Assembly (NCBI GenBank): GCA_003246255.1
Contig: QKAX01000105.1
Location: forward strand, 1 to 39,517
DNA: 39,517 nucleotides
Reading direction: 5' to 3'
From: Demequina lutea
Lineage (GTDB): Bacteria; Actinomycetota; Actinomycetes; Actinomycetales; Demequinaceae
In this document: positions 5,668 to 25,677 of the stretch, in pieces
How the letters are laid out: the number at the start of each line of letters is the position of its first letter
How positions within the stretch are numbered: position 1 is the stretch's first letter
Translations under genes and position numbers: made by a program
Notes under the pieces: generated by a model
Database searches by the model: none
The model's input: only the letters and a program-made list of their open reading frames with translations
Told to the model about the DNA's origin: nothing

Positions 5668-6858
5668 ATGGCTAAGGCCAAGTTCGAGCGGACCAAGCCG
5701 CACGTCAACATCGGCACCATCGGTCACGTCGACCACGGTAAGACGACGCTGACCGCTGCCATCTCGAAGGTGCTGCACGACAAGTACCCGGATGTGAACC
5801 CCTTCACGCCCTTCGCGGACATCGACAAGGCTCCCGAGGAGCGCGAGCGCGGTATCACGATCAACATCGCGCACATCGAGTACGAGACCGAGAAGCGTCA
5901 CTACGCACACGTGGACGCCCCGGGTCACGCCGACTACATCAAGAACATGATCACCGGTGCCGCCCAGATGGACGGCGCGATCCTGGTGGTCGCCGCGACC
6001 GACGGCCCCATGGCCCAGACGCGTGAGCACGTGCTGCTCGCCAAGCAGGTGGGCGTGCCCTACCTGCTGGTTGCGCTGAACAAGTCGGACATGGTCGACG
6101 ACGAGGAGATCCTCGAGCTCGTCGAGGTTGAGGTGCGCGAGCTCCTCTCCTCGCAGGGCTTCGATGGCGACAACGCCCCCGTGGTCCAGGTCTCCGCTCT
6201 CAAGGCCCTCGAGGGCGACGAGAAGTGGGTCAAGACCGTCGAGGCGCTCATGGACGCGGTGGACGAGAACGTCCCCGAGCCCGAGCGTGACATGGACAAG
6301 GCCTTCCTGATGCCGATCGAGGACGTCTTCACGATCACCGGTCGTGGCACCGTCGTCACTGGCAAGGTGGAGCGCGGCAAGCTCAAGATCAACTCCGAGG
6401 TCGAGATCCTCGGTATTCGCGAGCCCCAGAAGACCACGGTCACCGGTATCGAGATGTTCCACAAGCAGATGGACGAGGCGTGGGCCGGCGAGAACTGTGG
6501 CCTCCTGCTCCGCGGTACCAAGCGTGAGGACGTCGAGCGTGGCCAGGTTGTGGTTGCCCCCGGCACCACCACCCCCCACACCGAGTTCGAGGGCAAGTGC
6601 TACATCCTCACCAAGGATGAGGGTGGCCGCCACAACCCCTTCTACTCGAACTACCGCCCGCAGTTCTACATCCGCACCACGGACGTGACCGGCGTCATCA
6701 CGCTGCCCGAGGGCACCGAGATGGTCATGCCCGGTGACACCACCGAGATGACGGTTGAGCTGATCCAGCCCATCGCTCTCGAAGAGGGTCAGGGCTTCGC
6801 GATCCGCGAGGGTGGCCGCACCGTTGGTTCGGGCACCGTCACCAAGATCATCAAGTAA
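5668..6858 (+). CDS. tuf: Translation elongation factor Tu
   Basis: 396 residues, ATG start with a strong CAGGAGGAA Shine-Dalgarno. Delivers aminoacyl-tRNA to the ribosome. G1 GHVDHGKT (residues 19-26), RGITIN switch I, DAPGHADY with the catalytic His, and NKSD are present; domains II and III are complete. Near the C-terminus it reads [14 protein letters not shown], where many homologues as I remember them have GAG rather than GSG; I attach no function to this. The 119-nt gap after fusA holds an AT-richer patch (5560-5580) that could contain a separate tuf promoter, but no clear -35/-10 pair was seen. Confidence 0.99.
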
Positions 6859-20546: not shown

Positions 20547-21356
20547 ATGGCACGCGGCATCGAGTTCAAGACCCGCGAGCAGATGCGGGTCATGGCCCGC
20601 TCCGGGGTCATCACGTCCAAGGCACTCGCCGCGGCCACGGCTGCTGCAGTCCCGGGAGCGACTACCGCCCAGGTCGACGCTGCCGCGCGAGCGGTGATTG
20701 AGGCCGAGGGCGCCACTTCCAACTTCTTGGGTTATCACGGCTTCCCCGCCGTCAGCTGCGTCTCCGTCAACGAGGAGGTCGTTCACGGCATCCCGGGTGA
20801 CCGCGTCATTCAGGAGGGCGACGTCGTGTCGATCGACTGTGGCGCGATCGTCGATGGTTGGCACTCCGACTCCGCCGTCACGGTGATCGCGGGTGAGGCG
20901 CGCGGCGGCCAGGACATCCACCTGGTCGAGCGCACGCGGGCGAGCCTGTGGGCGGGCATTGCCGCCCTCGCCACTGCCCAGCGCCTCGACGAAGTCTCGG
21001 CCGCCATCGAGGACGTCGCCGACGAGGCTGGCCTGTTCCCGCTCTTGGGTTACGTGGGCCACGGCATCGGTACGGCGATGCACCAGGCTCCCGACGTCAT
21101 GAACTACCGCACTAGGGGACGGCAGCCCAAGGTCAAGGCAGGGATGTGCCTTGCCATCGAGCCGATGCTGGTGACGGGCACGTCCGAGTCCGACGTCCTG
21201 GCAGACGACTGGACGGTGGTGTCGGCAGACGGCTCGCGCGCTGCGCACTGGGAGCACTCCATCGCCGTTCACGAGGACGGCATCTGGGTGTTGACGGCGC
21301 CCGATGGGGGAGCGGCGGAGCTGGCGGCATTCGGTGTCACGCCGGTAGCCCCGTAG
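20547..21356 (+). CDS. map: Methionine aminopeptidase, type I
   Basis: 269 residues. Removes the initiator methionine from nascent proteins. All metal ligands are visible: Asp97, Asp108, His172, Glu205 and Glu236, with substrate-contacting His80, in SIDCGAIVDGWHSDSAV, GHGIGTAMHQ and AIEPM. No N-terminal zinc-finger extension. It closes the secY-adk-map block; infA, which in relatives often follows soon after, is here displaced by about 4.1 kb. Confidence 0.99.
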   Translation: MARGIEFKTREQMRVMARSGVITSKALAAATAAAVPGATTAQVDAAARAVIEAEGATSNFLGYHGFPAVSCVSVNEEVVHGIPGDRVIQEGDVVSIDCGAIVDGWHSDSAVTVIAGEARGGQDIHLVERTRASLWAGIAALATAQRLDEVSAAIEDVADEAGLFPLLGYVGHGIGTAMHQAPDVMNYRTRGRQPKVKAGMCLAIEPMLVTGTSESDVLADDWTVVSADGSRAAHWEHSIAVHEDGIWVLTAPDGGAAELAAFGVTPVAP

Positions 21357-21499: not shown

Positions 21500-21955
21500 A
21501 TGGCACGAGGGTTTTCTGCGGCACCGGGCGCGAGCCCGGACGTGGCGCTCGCATCCGATCCCGATCTGCCGCGCCTCCACCTGCTGCAGCTTGTCGAGTC
21601 GAAGAACTCGGTGGTGCGAGAGACCCTCGCGGCACGCAACGACTTGCCGCTGGGGGCGATGGTGAGCCTCGCGCATGACTCGTCCGGCGAGGTGCGGGCG
21701 GTCCTGGCGGCGAACCCCACGCTGGTGGAGTCGTTGGTGGACGTACTGGTGCGGGACAAGGACCACCACGTACTCGCCGCTCTGGTGCATCGCTCGGATC
21801 TGCCCTACAAGGCGCTGCAGTTGCTGGCCTTCCATAAGCGCAAGGACATCCGCGAGCTCGCCGCTGCGCGCCTCGACGCGGGCGAGGTGGCAAGAAAGCG
21901 CGGGAGCGACGAGCTCCTCCCGCCAGAGCTTCGCGAGCGAGAGCCGAGCGAGTAG
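21500..21955 (+). CDS. LrA: LRV/HEAT-like repeat protein, long form
   Basis: 151 residues from ATG at 21500 (Shine-Dalgarno GAGGGAG). Four repeats of exactly 26 residues, aligned on Val39, Val65, Val91 and Ile117: A (VVRETLAARNDLP), B (GEVRAVLAANPTL), C (RDKDHHVLAALVHRSDLP) and D (FHKRKDIRELAAARL). A charged linker and PPELRERE end the protein. The pattern resembles variant leucine-rich repeats (LRV; related to HEAT), which form curved helical scaffolds for protein or nucleic-acid contacts; the assignment is from memory of the pattern. No signal peptide, membrane helix or catalytic motif. First of six paralogues between map and infA; closest to LrB (shared MARG start and DLPLG). The 143-nt gap before it shows a TAGTCT at 21442-21447 area without a -35 partner. 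Confidence 0.82.
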   Translation: MARGFSAAPGASPDVALASDPDLPRLHLLQLVESKNSVVRETLAARNDLPLGAMVSLAHDSSGEVRAVLAANPTLVESLVDVLVRDKDHHVLAALVHRSDLPYKALQLLAFHKRKDIRELAAARLDAGEVARKRGSDELLPPELREREPSE

Positions 21956-22081
21956 AACGCCGTGGCACGCTAGCGGGAACTGCGTGCCCAGACCGCCCCC
22001 TGAAAGGGTGTCCCCCAGGCCGGTGCCCCCGGTGTGAGGGCCGTCATATGGGCGATTACCAGGTCATTTGTGGATCCGAGA

Positions 22082-22097
22082 TGTGAAGATTCTCACA
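22082..22097 (+). promoter_or_regulatory. CRP/GlxR-like palindrome upstream of LrB
   Basis: TGTGA AGATTC TCACA: two perfect 5-bp half-sites with a 6-bp spacer, the pattern bound by CRP-family regulators, including GlxR of corynebacteria. It lies 136 nt before the LrB start. The rest of the 278-nt gap between LrA and LrB holds no gene; a CATAGT at 22137-22142 could be a -10 box but lacks a good -35. Confidence 0.45.
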
Positions 22098-22233
22098 AGT
22101 GGGCCGCATTTCCTCGCAAACGCCCGAGGCCTGCCGCATAGTGAGTGGACAACGCACCAGGAGGGCACCTGGGGACCACCACACGACGGCGAATCGGGCT
22201 CCTGTGCCCCACTCGCCACCCCCAGGGGGACCG

Positions 22234-23082
22234 ATGGCACGAGGACTGTCGCCGAACCGCGGCGGGGCAGAGAGTGAGCTCGCTGACGCCCGCGCCCAGG
22301 GTCTGCATCGGACCCACATCGCCCTGCTCGCGCAGTCCCGTCATCGTGCGGTGCGCGAGGCCATTGCCAAGCGTGATGACCTGCCACTGGGCATCCAGGC
22401 GGCGCTCGCGAACGACGATTGGCACGAGGTCCGTGCGACCGTCGCCGCCAACCCCCGCATCGCTGGCTCGATTCTCGATGCGCTTGCCGATGATCGGCAC
22501 CACCTCGTGCTTCTCTCGTTGTTGTCGAATGACGCTGCCTCACGAGAGGCTGTACGCAAGCTTGAGAGTCACAAGCGCCCAGACGTGCGGATCGCTGCGC
22601 AGGCGCTCACCGAGCGCCTTTCCTCGGACGCCTCCAAGGGAGCAGCACGACAGCTGGCGGAGGACGGCGCGACGCCTGAGCTCCGCGAGCGAGCGGCCAC
22701 GCTGAGCGAAGCCGAGGCCTTCGAGCGGGACGCTCCGCCGGCCTTCCTGCTGGGCGCCTCGATCGCACGTAGGGCCGGAGAGGCCGACGAGCCGGGACCC
22801 AAGGTCGCCCCGCACATCGGCGAGCCCGATCTTCGTGACCCGATGTTCACGCCCGAGCCTGGTGTGGCCATGCCTCACCCGCTCGACGCGGAGCGAGGGC
22901 CGGCGCTGCGCCGGGATCCCGCGGTCGAGTACCTCGTGGTGTCCCTGCCGCCCGACGACGGGCAGGACGCCTTGAACCGTCCGGTCGTCGCGCTGGCCAC
23001 CCGCATTCCCTCGCCGCCGCCACGCATCGCGGCCGCGGTCCCTTCGGCCTCACGCGTCTTCCGCGTATCCGCCACCATCTAG
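22234..23082 (+). CDS. LrB: LRV/HEAT-like repeat protein with long C-terminal extension
   Basis: 282 residues from ATG at 22234, preceded by AGGGGGACC. Repeats A-D align on Val40, Val66, Val92 and Val118, again exactly 26 apart: AVREAIAKRDDLP, HEVRATVAANPRI, DDRHHLVLLSLLSND, SHKRPDVRIAAQALTER. The family motif TPELRERA follows at about 148-155. Residues 156-282 are unique to this member: Pro/Ala-rich, with no recognised domain and no membrane segment. The frame opens upstream at 22099, but that part is unlike the paralogues. Only 13 nt separate it from LrC, so the two probably form one transcript. Confidence 0.8.
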   Translation: MARGLSPNRGGAESELADARAQGLHRTHIALLAQSRHRAVREAIAKRDDLPLGIQAALANDDWHEVRATVAANPRIAGSILDALADDRHHLVLLSLLSNDAASREAVRKLESHKRPDVRIAAQALTERLSSDASKGAARQLAEDGATPELRERAATLSEAEAFERDAPPAFLLGASIARRAGEADEPGPKVAPHIGEPDLRDPMFTPEPGVAMPHPLDAERGPALRRDPAVEYLVVSLPPDDGQDALNRPVVALATRIPSPPPRIAAAVPSASRVFRVSATI

Positions 23083-23095
23083 GAACGAGAACCTC

Positions 23096-23410
23096 ATGGC
23101 CCTGCTGACGACCCGCACCTCGCCCGAGGATCGTGCGCGCGCGCTCGACCCCCTGACCTCCCGAGCCGACCTGGTCGCCCTCGCCGCTCACCGCGCCGCC
23201 GATGTCCGCGCGGCTGTCGCGTCGCGTCGCGACTGTCCGCTCGCCTCCATGCTTGCGCTGGTCAACGAGGATGATCCGCGCATTCTGCAGGCCCTGGCCT
23301 GCAACCCGAGCGCGCCGCTCACGGTGCTGGAGACCCTCGCCGGGCATCGGCGCCCGGTCGTGCGCGAGATTGCCAAGGCGAGGCTTCGAGCGGCCGCACA
23401 GGTCGCCTAG
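23096..23410 (+). CDS. LrC: LRV/HEAT-like repeat protein, short form
   Basis: 104 residues. Three 26-residue repeats aligned on Val37, Ile63 and Val89: A (DVRAAVASRRDCP), C (EDDPRILQALACNPSAP), D (HRRPVVREIAKARL). Relative to LrA, LrB, LrD and LrE, repeat B and the C-terminal ELR motif are missing. Starts with a RALDPLTSRADL segment shared with LrF. Co-transcribed with LrB by position, and followed by a terminator. GGAACGAGAA is the ribosome-binding region. Confidence 0.8.
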   Translation: MALLTTRTSPEDRARALDPLTSRADLVALAAHRAADVRAAVASRRDCPLASMLALVNEDDPRILQALACNPSAPLTVLETLAGHRRPVVREIAKARLRAAAQVA

Positions 23411-23475
23411 CGCCCCACTGACGTCCGACGCCCCTCGGCGACACGCCCCCTCAGCCGCGTCGCCCGCGTCGGGCG

Positions 23476-23512
23476 GACGGCGGTGGCCCCTCACGGGGCT
23501 GCCGCCGTCTTT
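23476..23512 (+). terminator. Terminator between LrC and LrD
   Basis: Outer arms 23476-23483 and 23502-23509, inner arms 23486-23490 and 23495-23499, joined by two G-U pairs; loop TCAC; TTT follows. It separates the LrB-LrC unit from LrD. The remaining bases to 23631 hold no gene. Confidence 0.7.
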
Positions 23513-23631
23513 GCGTGGCGACGACCCGGCGGCGCGAGGCGCGTAGCCGCGTTCCCCATGCCGCCACCCTTTCGCAACCTTTCTGTGAGGTGCGGCGGCT
23601 AACGTGCCGCCAGGAGCCGAGGAGGTGGCGC

Positions 23632-24246
23632 GTGGCCGGAGGAGACGGGAGCTCGTGGACGCGCGCGCTCATGGCATCGTCTGGCGTTGCCCTCGGCCAC
23701 GACAACGGTCCTCGACACGCGTCTGCTGAGTGGGTCGAGGCGTCCACCCAGGAGACGCCACTGAGGCGCCTGCAGGAGCTCGCGAGTTGCAGGGAGATCG
23801 CGGTGCGCGAGGTCGTCGCGCGGCGCCCGGATTGCCCGATGGGGCTGCTCGCGACGCTTGCCCACGACGCCCGGTCGGAGGTGCGCGCGGGCGTGGCAGG
23901 AAACCCGCGCATCACCCAGGCCGTCGCAGAGCACCTGGTCGCTGACAAGGACCCTCGGGTCTTGAAAGCGCTCTCGCGCAATCACGCGATTCCCGTGGGG
24001 CTGGTGCAGCGGCTCGCGTCGCACAAGAAGGACGACGTGCGTCGCGTCGCGCTGCGGCAGCTGCAAGAGCGCATGGAGCTCGGCTCCGCGGCGGCATCGT
24101 CGACGCGCGGCGGCGACCTGCCCTTTGAGTTGCGGGACCGTGTGTCGCCGGCAGCCCCCTGGGGGACCTCGCAGGCGTTGCGCGGCATCGAGTCATGGGC
24201 CGACGTCCCCCACGGCCTTGGTCGTGGCGCGCCGACCGGCGCGTGA
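23632..24246 (+). CDS. LrD: LRV/HEAT-like repeat protein, long form
   Basis: 204 residues from GTG at 23632, with GAGGAGG 5 nt upstream; an in-frame ATG at 23515 overlaps the terminator and is rejected. Repeats align on Val58, Val84, Val110 and Val136 (26-residue period): AVREVVARRPDCP, SEVRAGVAGNPRI, DKDPRVLKALSRNHAIP, HKKDDVRRVALRQLQER. DLPFELRDRV follows at 162-171, then a ~33-residue tail (SWADVPHGLG). Closest to LrE, sharing RPDCPMGLLATL. Function unknown; the basic face of repeat D could contact nucleic acid or an acidic partner. Confidence 0.82.
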   Translation: MAGGDGSSWTRALMASSGVALGHDNGPRHASAEWVEASTQETPLRRLQELASCREIAVREVVARRPDCPMGLLATLAHDARSEVRAGVAGNPRITQAVAEHLVADKDPRVLKALSRNHAIPVGLVQRLASHKKDDVRRVALRQLQERMELGSAAASSTRGGDLPFELRDRVSPAAPWGTSQALRGIESWADVPHGLGRGAPTGA

Positions 24247-24268
24247 CGTGGAAGGAGCCACGCGACCA

Positions 24269-24298
24269 TTGAAGACAGCGCTCGACAGGCTCTATCCT
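24269..24298 (+). promoter_or_regulatory. Promoter of LrE
   Basis: TTGAAG (24269-24274), 18-nt spacer, TATCCT (24293-24298), 49 nt before the LrE start. Good match to the housekeeping sigma pattern. Confidence 0.65.
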
Positions 24299-24346
24299 TA
24301 GGCCCACCAAGGGCGGTCAAAGGCGCCGCCGCTAAGGGGCTGGGGC

Positions 24347-24919
24347 ATGGCGACGTCCGACACGGGTCAGATCAAGAACGCTGCTGCGCAGCCGGACTAT
24401 CAGCCGGGTCGGCTGATTGGGGCCTCGGTGGCCGATCTCATGGCGCTGTCCGGCATGGACATCCGCGAGGCCCATCACGACGCCAAGGCGGAGGAGACCG
24501 CGGCGGCCCCGGAGCCGGCCACGCCGCATCGGCTGGTGGAGCTTGCGTCATCTAAGGACGTCAACGTGCGAATCGCCGTCGCGTCGCGCCCGGACTGCCC
24601 CATGGGCCTGCTCGCCACGCTCGTCTACGACCGCAAGCCCGAGGTGCGCATGGCGGTGGCGGCCAACCCCAACCTCGTCACAGCTGTCGCCGACCAGCTG
24701 GCGACCGACAAGGACCGCCAGGTGCTGATGGCGCTCGTGGCAAATCCCCGCGTCGAGGTCTCGGTGCTCCAGCAGCTGACCCAGCACCGCAAAGACGAGA
24801 TCCGCCTCACGGCCGCTGCGACGCTCGAGGAGCGCGCTCAGCGGCCCACCGACTGGTGGGACGATGCCGAACGCCTGCCCGCCGAACTGCGTGACCGTGC
24901 GGGAGGCCTCGGCGGCTGA
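24347..24919 (+). CDS. LrE: LRV/HEAT-like repeat protein, long form
   Basis: 190 residues. An N-terminal ~58-residue region of low complexity (GASVADLMALSGMDIREAHH) precedes four repeats aligned on Val74, Val100, Val126 and Ile152: NVRIAVASRPDCP, PEVRMAVAANPNL, DKDRQVLMALVANPRV, HRKDEIRLTAAATLEER. Then WWDDAERLPAELRDRA, the clearest copy of the C-terminal family motif. It has its own promoter (24269-24298) and an AAGGGGCTGGGG ribosome-binding region. One conserved Cys per protein (DCP) in LrC-LrF; no CxxC cluster, so an iron-sulfur centre as in Azotobacter LRV protein is unlikely. Confidence 0.84.
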   Translation: MATSDTGQIKNAAAQPDYQPGRLIGASVADLMALSGMDIREAHHDAKAEETAAAPEPATPHRLVELASSKDVNVRIAVASRPDCPMGLLATLVYDRKPEVRMAVAANPNLVTAVADQLATDKDRQVLMALVANPRVEVSVLQQLTQHRKDEIRLTAAATLEERAQRPTDWWDDAERLPAELRDRAGGLGG

Positions 24920-24945
24920 CGCTGTCGAGTTCTTCACATTCGTTC

Positions 24946-24973
24946 GAGACAAATGCCGCATACGACGTAATCT
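24946..24973 (+). promoter_or_regulatory. Putative promoter of LrF
   Basis: GAGACA (24946-24951), 16-nt spacer, TAATCT (24968-24973), 46 nt before LrF. The -35 match is moderate. Confidence 0.4.
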
Positions 24974-25019
24974 GTCCGCGTCGTTGTGGGGGCGTGGCCC
25001 CCGGAAGGGCAGGCACGAC

Positions 25020-25331
25020 ATGACTGATCTGTCTCACGCGCAGGATGCGTCCGAGGATGTGCGCCGCGCGCTCGACCCGCAGACGGCGGGCTCCGACCTC
25101 ATGCAGTTCGCTGTGCATCGCACGGCCGCCGTACGCGCGGCAGTGGCTGCGCGCCAGGACTGCCCCGTTGCCGCGCTGACGTCGCTAGGCTTCGACCACG
25201 ACCGCACGGTGCTCGAGGCGCTGTTGAGGAACCCCAAGACGCCGTCATCAGTGGTGCGCAAGCTTGCCGACAACCGCGATCCGCGGGTCAGCGACCTCGC
25301 CGTTCAGCGCCTACGCAACGCGTTCCGCTAG
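25020..25331 (+). CDS. LrF: LRV/HEAT-like repeat protein, short form
   Basis: 103 residues from ATG at 25020 behind GGAAGGGCAGG. Repeats align on Val38, Val64 and Val90: A (AVRAAVAARQDCP), C (HDRTVLEALLRNPKTP), D (NRDPRVSDLAVQRL). It shares RALDPQT and HR..AVRAAVA with LrC and, like LrC, lacks repeat B and the ELR motif. The open frame upstream (from 24864) runs into LrE and is rejected. Last gene of the array, 124 nt before infA. Confidence 0.82.
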   Translation: MTDLSHAQDASEDVRRALDPQTAGSDLMQFAVHRTAAVRAAVAARQDCPVAALTSLGFDHDRTVLEALLRNPKTPSSVVRKLADNRDPRVSDLAVQRLRNAFR

Positions 25332-25369: not shown

Positions 25370-25398
25370 TTGAGACTCGCCGCAGGATGGTCTAAACT
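25370..25398 (+). promoter_or_regulatory. infA promoter
   Basis: TTGAGA (25370-25375), 17-nt spacer, TAAACT (25393-25398), 57 nt before infA. The best promoter match in the window; it would drive infA-rpmJ-rpsM-rpsK and onward, independently of the repeat-protein array. Confidence 0.8.
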
Positions 25399-25455: not shown

Positions 25456-25677
25456 ATGGCCAAGAAAGATGGCGTCATTGAGGTTGAAGGCACCGTGGTC
25501 GAGGCATTGCCGAACGCGTCGTTCCGTGTGGAACTGACAAACGGCCACCTCGTCCTTGCCCACATCTCAGGCAAGATGCGCCAGCACTACATCCGAATCC
25601 TCCCCGAGGACCGTGTGGTGGTGGAACTGAGCCCTTATGACCTGTCCCGCGGCCGCATTGTCTACCGCTACAAGTAA
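25456..25677 (+). CDS. infA: Translation initiation factor IF-1
   Basis: 73 residues; a single S1-like OB fold: [37 protein letters not shown] and [10 protein letters not shown]. Binds the 30S A site during initiation. Its own strong promoter lies upstream. ATG preceded by AGCGGAG. Usual actinobacterial position ahead of rpmJ. Confidence 0.99.

Follow-up and report, generated by a model that had tools for sequence, protein, structure and literature searches.

The 39,517-nucleotide stretch of DNA analyzed here (the window) is the whole of contig QKAX01000105.1 (C67) of the 2.65 Mb draft genome of Demequina lutea, and at positions 21500-25331 it holds six paralogous open genes on the forward strand, LrA to LrF, flanked by map and infA (Table 1). 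The encoded proteins belong to the leucine-rich repeat variant (LRV) family and have a predicted helical solenoid fold, the genes keep their place before infA across the Demequinaceae and are under purifying selection, one protein type (A) has a conserved C-terminal tag, and dyads are enriched at preferred spacings upstream of two gene types (A and F). We interpret the array, with moderate confidence, as a Demequinaceae-specific cassette of small cytoplasmic LRV solenoids that would bind peptides or proteins, with type A as an adaptor and with separately regulated promoters for the A and F genes.

Paralogy, coding status and distribution of the array

A first-pass annotation, made from the letters of the window, had described six intact small paralogous genes between map and infA, and open genes, homology and substitution ratios all agree with this description. 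The homology is not circular, since the query sets of our own-genome and F-profile searches did not contain the target: LrE as a query against its own genome matched LrD (E = 8.4e-31), LrA (1.7e-19) and LrB (2.8e-15), and a profile of F-type proteins only matched LrC (1.3e-22), LrA (3.6e-14), LrE (1.5e-10), LrD (2.0e-10) and LrB (6.5e-10). Pairwise comparison joined C to F (1e-19), A to B (3e-22) and D to C (3e-8). Judged from these sequence comparisons, the paralogy of the six is far above chance. E-values of a profile built from all six are circular, and that profile was used for gene finding only.

For the ten lowest-dS pairs of each type, the ratio of nonsynonymous to synonymous substitution rates (dN/dS, Nei-Gojobori method) was below 1 throughout, with the lowest values for F (0.03-0.25), followed by A (0.12-0.47), C (0.13-0.56) and D (0.17-0.66). 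The four best pairs listed per type for the window's own genes had dS values of 0.92-1.71 or undefined, which makes their ratios unreliable. LrE was matched in all 44 genomes of the genus, the window included; because all 43 genus relatives thus have a match and the dN/dS values stay below 1, we take the six genes to be coding. Six unrelated open reading frames in GC-rich DNA are ruled out by homology and dN/dS. A pseudogene array is ruled out as well, since a tblastn search of the map-infA intervals with called genes masked left no convincing pseudogene: ten matches remained, all at or before a called start and read by us as start choices, one of them (L053) with a stop within that stretch. 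Stops were also flagged inside some genome-search matches, and in the two that were translated (LrA of the window and a match in G005) the match overruns the gene end. The type-A gene of G011 (L051) looks frame-shifted near its end, which is probably an assembly fault because secY and adk are also broken in this draft, whose completeness is 50%. With this shift set aside, the search for frame-disrupted orthologues left none that convinced us, and similarity among the paralogues was detectable.

A tree of 129 array proteins separates types A, C, D and F. Type A is map-proximal and in most cases starts with MARGF, type C is short, type D starts with W[ST]RA, and type F is infA-proximal. Proteins were labelled by motif (A, 45; F, 38; D, 25; C, 9), and most of the 12 proteins left unassigned, which include LrE, are D-like in the tree. 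The order in the window is A-A-C-D-E-F. An LRV gene of G407, from another Demequinaceae genus and on a contig stretch without infA (L236), encodes an N-terminus, EELMGTPLEDLMAMAGADFR, that resembles that of LrE; this likeness suggests that type E predates the array. The genome of the window also holds two weak LRV-like genes off the array, of 282 and 183 amino acids according to the gene caller (L082 and L083, on C36 and C172).

The type-A profile matched in all 47 Demequinaceae genomes, and at least one LRV gene lies before infA in every one of them (window included). The map-infA stretch was fetched for 42 of the 43 genus relatives. In 41 of these, LRV genes lie between map and infA with both flanks present, and the region of G041 is split over contigs, one with an LRV gene following map and the other with one preceding infA; in the 43rd relative, G039, a gene of type F lies between map and infA. 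In the genomes of other genera, two LRV genes separate map from infA in G406, and the interval between adk and infA contains one in G192 and two in G407. The 42 closed intervals (window included) contain six LRV copies in one case, which is the window, five in one, four in seven, three in 24, two in eight and one in one. Type F is present in 38 of them, and type D too can be missing. Two intervals have inserts within the array: the one in G027 (L067) encodes an alternate-signal-peptide protein, a ricin-type lectin-domain protein and a SipW-like signal peptidase, and the one in G037 (L076) looks similar by eye.

Outside the family the arrangement was not recovered. An infA search covered 149 genomes of the order, 11 of them Demequina, and none of 20 genomes of other families, hand-picked rather than drawn at random from the 138 non-Demequina genomes, had an LRV gene beside infA. 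At E <= 1e-8, with 12 candidates scored per genome, the F-type profile matched 40 of 396 genomes of the order, of which 35 were Demequinaceae and five others matched weakly. Presence throughout the order is ruled out by the weakness of these five matches, the lack of infA in the 9-17 kb around them and the 20 outgroups. The expectation that the array would recur in relatives thus holds within the Demequinaceae and, in the genomes sampled, fails for the Micrococcales at large. Similarly, map and infA, described beforehand as usually close neighbours, are 165-420 bp apart in nine of the 20 outgroup genomes and 1.6-4.0 kb apart in five; in the other six, map lay outside the fetched stretch.

The first-pass annotation had suggested a role in growth or translation. 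The LRV proteins would then act on the ribosome, on initiation or on nascent-chain processing and for that reason stay beside map and infA, and the presence of an LRV gene before infA in 47 of 47 genomes, even without map in between (G192, G407), would suit such a role. We nevertheless consider it distinctly unlikely: infA has its own promoter-like site (25370-25398), related LRV genes occur at an unrelated locus, F and D can each be absent, and a common position between two operons can simply be inherited passively. Because of this promoter-like site, and because LRV genes are also found elsewhere, near xseA-, pfkB- and fumC-like genes, the position next to infA is best explained by descent at an operon boundary, and the tie to translation or growth was not borne out. 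The second LRV site in Demequinaceae (L081, L085, L089, L160) lies among xseA-, xseB-, pfkB- and fumC-like genes, named by reading.

A boundary of this kind could also be permissive ground on which a neutral or weakly useful paralogue family grows and shrinks, as the copy number of one to six and the absence of F from four of the 42 closed intervals might indicate. This explanation is the least probable of those we weighed, given dN/dS below 1 in the listed pairs, presence in all 47 genomes, conservation of both the tag and the upstream sites, and no convincing pseudogene.

Repeat fold and the C-terminal tag of type A

In a Pfam scan, LrA, LrD, LrE and LrF scored above the cut-off of the LRV family (PF01816, 21.6 bits), with LrD also above that of LRV_2 and LrE above that of DUF2336. 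LrB (18.4 bits) and LrC (15.8) stayed under the LRV cut-off and are included only as clear homologues; no family matched the long C-terminal part of LrB. An NCBIfam scan of the six proteins gave nothing over a cut-off. The remark that no catalytic motif is visible stands, as no enzyme family reached its cut-off for any of the six in either scan.

Searched against solved structures, a profile built from 24 proteins of types D, E and A matched the engineered repeat protein 4rv1 (3.8e-5), then 1lrv (9.9e-4). AlphaFold2 models were examined for two proteins, LrE and one type-A protein of D. sediminis, and both show a solenoid of 1lrv-like two-helix repeats. Mean confidence (pLDDT) was 86.2 for the type-A protein, with residues 11-130 at 92 or higher in blocks of ten, and 81.4 for LrE, with residues 61-160 at 96 or higher. 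Foldseek ranked 1lrv first for both models (E = 4.8e-4 for type A and 2.5e-3 for LrE), and many of the matches after it were HEAT and armadillo binding scaffolds. Pfam, the structure profile and Foldseek thus agree with the LRV/HEAT-like family that had been proposed, and the added expectation that all six would hit one family failed at the cut-off for LrB and LrC.

The structure 1lrv, from Azotobacter vinelandii, carries a cysteine-rich iron-sulphur part. The array proteins share its repeat profile (PF01816) and helical solenoid; the 1lrv chain is longer (233-244 residues), and its cysteine-rich cluster-binding part has no counterpart among them, the cysteines of LrA to LrF numbering 0, 0, 2, 2, 1 and 1. 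To our knowledge, no tag or infA synteny goes with 1lrv. As to DUF2336/SpbR (PF10098, NF052659), LrE exceeds the DUF2336 cut-off (41.4 versus 34.6 bits) across its repeats, matching the profile in part only, and the SpbR scores of LrA (15.5 bits) and LrE (19.2) are far from the cut-off of 400. Searches of open-licence papers on DUF2336, SpbR and variant leucine-rich repeats turned up nothing useful.

The tag of type A reads R[ST]AP[VI]RG[FY], and 30 of the 45 type-A proteins carry AP[VI]RG[FY] within their last 25 residues. Tagged proteins are 169-257 amino acids long, and the synonymous codons at the tag are varied. LrA is shorter (151 amino acids) than these orthologues, and its frame beyond the stop reads QTAP, perhaps a decayed tag, four letters being weak evidence. 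At the DNA level the motif was found 29 times, in 28 of the 47 family genomes, and 27 of these cases lie within the array, which rules out a general Demequina C-terminus; the two others lie at the end of a second-locus LRV protein of G004 and in a spurious-looking frame in G041. By reading, the type-A protein of G407 has two tag look-alikes near its end, GGARMRGIK and GGARMHGAK. A stretch like P-E-L-R-[DE]-R follows the repeats in 26 of the 45 type-A proteins (loose pattern) and also in LrA, LrB, LrD and LrE. In the type-A model the tail has low confidence (pLDDT 53-62), which lends no support to binding of the tag by its own solenoid.

Upstream dyads and a candidate regulator

We scored a dyad where at least 8 of the 10 letters of TGTGA-N6-TCACA agreed, for genes with at least 60 nt of upstream DNA of their own, and took expectations from shuffled sequence. 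Such dyads lie upstream of 28 of 45 A genes and 23 of 36 F genes (1.1 expected for each type) and upstream of none of 25 D genes. They have preferred distances: from the start of the site to the gene, these are 119-132 nt for 20 of the 28 A sites and 81-104 nt for 17 of the 23 F sites. At least one dyad was found in 36 of 43 intervals. Across 39 loci, intergenic DNA of the array contains 49 dyads in 17.6 kb (2.78 per kb) versus 9 in 54.8 kb (0.164 per kb) in other intergenic DNA; outside the family we counted 5 in 22.9 kb, and loci with the second LRV site are intermediate (12 in 19.5 kb). DNA called coding holds 25 dyads in 76.5 kb within the array versus 55 in 463 kb elsewhere, an excess that arises because the gene caller runs into upstream DNA. 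LRV genes assigned to other loci, a set that holds some array genes, have a dyad in 23 of 53 cases (2.8 expected). Conservation of the half-sites is partly circular, as the sites were chosen by those letters; the shuffle counts, the centre of the F sites and the intergenic densities are not. At six loci of the second LRV site (L084, L087, L088, L090, L170 and L171), a site like TGAGACATATGCCACA lies 97-100 nt upstream of the LRV gene.

The own genome has ten perfect dyads, versus none for the backward control, which gave none in five genomes and one in G012. A Crp-type protein (L279, with cNMP_binding and HTH_Crp_2 domains) is encoded in the own genome. According to PMC4254451, GlxR, whose consensus is TGTGANNTANNTCACA, is usually an activator. 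Set against this operator, the A-type sites share TGTG and CACA at equal spacing and resemble Crp/GlxR operators in sequence; its TA centre is unlike the consensus of the array sites, and the F-type sites differ further, with a left half of TGTC and an invariant central TT. Upstream dyads are enriched over control DNA across genomes for A and F genes, as a Crp regulon would predict, with the left half of the F sites deviating. In the window alone, three dyads were found at one mismatch versus 0.77 expected, a count reached by 2 of 100 shuffles; a 9-of-10 dyad lies at 5793-5808, outside the array. Dyad enrichment from the window alone was rejected, being at chance level at two mismatches.

Other perfect dyads in G000, G034 and G004 stand, by a simple gene caller, near genes for GGDEF, GT2, SRAP, HlyD-like, SpaA and M1-peptidase proteins and a signal-peptidase cluster. 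Perfect dyads occur in both G000 and G034 near GT2 (L273/L280), the signal-peptidase cluster (L277/L284) and an SRAP-like gene (L275/L282), the GT2 and SRAP genes of G034 being recognized by reading. This recurrence hints at a conserved Crp regulon. If that regulon served envelope structures, the array could belong to it, with the LRV proteins in assembly or signalling at the surface or in biofilm. Consistent with this are the perfect dyads near GGDEF, GT2 and HlyD-like genes in G000 (with the GT2 look-alike of G034), near the signal-peptidase cluster of G000 and G034 and near a SpaA-domain protein in G004, as well as the secretion- and lectin-related insert of G027 and its look-alike in G037. 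We consider such a role unlikely. The links between dyads and genes come from a simple gene caller and putative sites, some of them almost at or inside called starts, and of the 36 perfect sites that six genomes have outside the array and second locus, 17, from three genomes, were examined in part. Moreover, the dyad-linked list includes SRAP and M1 peptidase, and inserts occur in only 2 of 42 closed intervals.

Table 1. Features of the array and its flanks (positions in the window).
Feature	Position	Strand	Remarks
map	20547-21356		One flank of the array
LrA, type A LRV protein, 151 aa, ATG	21500-21955	+	LRV 22.5 bits (cut-off 21.6); without the C-terminal R[ST]AP[VI]RG[FY] tag
TGTGA-N6-TCACA-like dyad, 9 of 10	22033-22048	+	Upstream of LrB
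Perfect TGTGA-N6-TCACA dyad	22082-22097	+	Before LrB; the genome has ten such dyads
LrB, second type-A-like LRV protein, 282 aa, ATG	22234-23082	+	LRV 18.4 bits, under the cut-off of 21.6
LrC, short type C LRV protein, 104 aa, ATG	23096-23410	+	Every match under cut-offs
LrD, type D LRV protein, 204 aa, GTG	23632-24246	+	N-terminal WTRALMASSG; start chosen from the GGAGG ahead of it; LRV_2 33.3 bits (cut-off 27), LRV 26.7 (21.6)
LrE, LRV protein, 190 aa, ATG	24347-24919	+	DUF2336 41.4 bits (cut-off 34.6), LRV 26.3 (21.6)
F-type operator-like site TGTCGAGTTCTTCACA	24923-24938	+	97 nt before LrF; alone not above chance in the window
LrF, type F LRV protein, 103 aa, ATG	25020-25331	+	LRV 27.6 bits (cut-off 21.6); adjoins infA
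Promoter-like site TTGAGA-17-TAAACT	25370-25398	+	Before infA, after the array; 1 found versus 0.2 expected
infA	25456-25677		Other flank of the array

A proposed function for the cassette

In the interpretation we favour, that of a family-specific set of binding solenoids, each protein would be a short, probably cytoplasmic solenoid, built from some three to five two-helix repeats, whose ligand is most likely a peptide or a partner protein. Type A, with its flexible linker and, in most genomes, its C-terminal tag, may recruit a second partner and so work as an adaptor, and types C and F would be nearly bare solenoids. The A and F genes would have promoters of their own, probably activated by a dimeric regulator of the Crp/FNR type at the upstream dyad, and D, without an upstream dyad, would follow A.

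Several observations weigh against this interpretation. The template modelling (TM) scores to 1lrv are modest (0.34 for type A and 0.46 for LrE by query length). The tag is absent from 15 of the 45 type-A proteins, both A-like proteins of the window included, and F, being missing from four closed intervals, is not indispensable. Dyads were found upstream of none of 5 C genes and 2 of 12 unassigned genes, 7 of 43 intervals have none, and the window alone, at up to two mismatches, contains 11 versus 11.7 expected, which is chance. The F-type sites read TGTC[GT]G-TTC-TCACA, with position 4 being C rather than G in 91% and the central TT invariant, and their consensus TGTCNGNTTCNTCACA occurs without mismatch at 19 places in the 47 genomes, 14 of them in the array. 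From its sequence, such a rare site fits better with an array-specific element than with a global Crp site, and the F-type sites may be read by another protein. A fuller scheme would be a family-specific adaptor system in which the LRV solenoids share a tag and a dedicated dimeric regulator, acting at the operator TGTCNGNTTCNTCACA that is almost unique in the genome, passes a signal from cAMP or a related molecule to the partner; we regard this version as doubtful.

LRV proteins are a known kind of protein, and as far as open-licence papers were searched, nothing on LRV proteins in this lineage was found and a family-wide cassette with a tag and upstream sites is undescribed. The set occupies one fixed position throughout a bacterial family, has conserved upstream sites and a short C-terminal tag, and occurs in a genus rich in named type strains. 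The tag offers a bait and the sites a regulator to test, and the binding targets of LRV proteins thereby become experimentally approachable.

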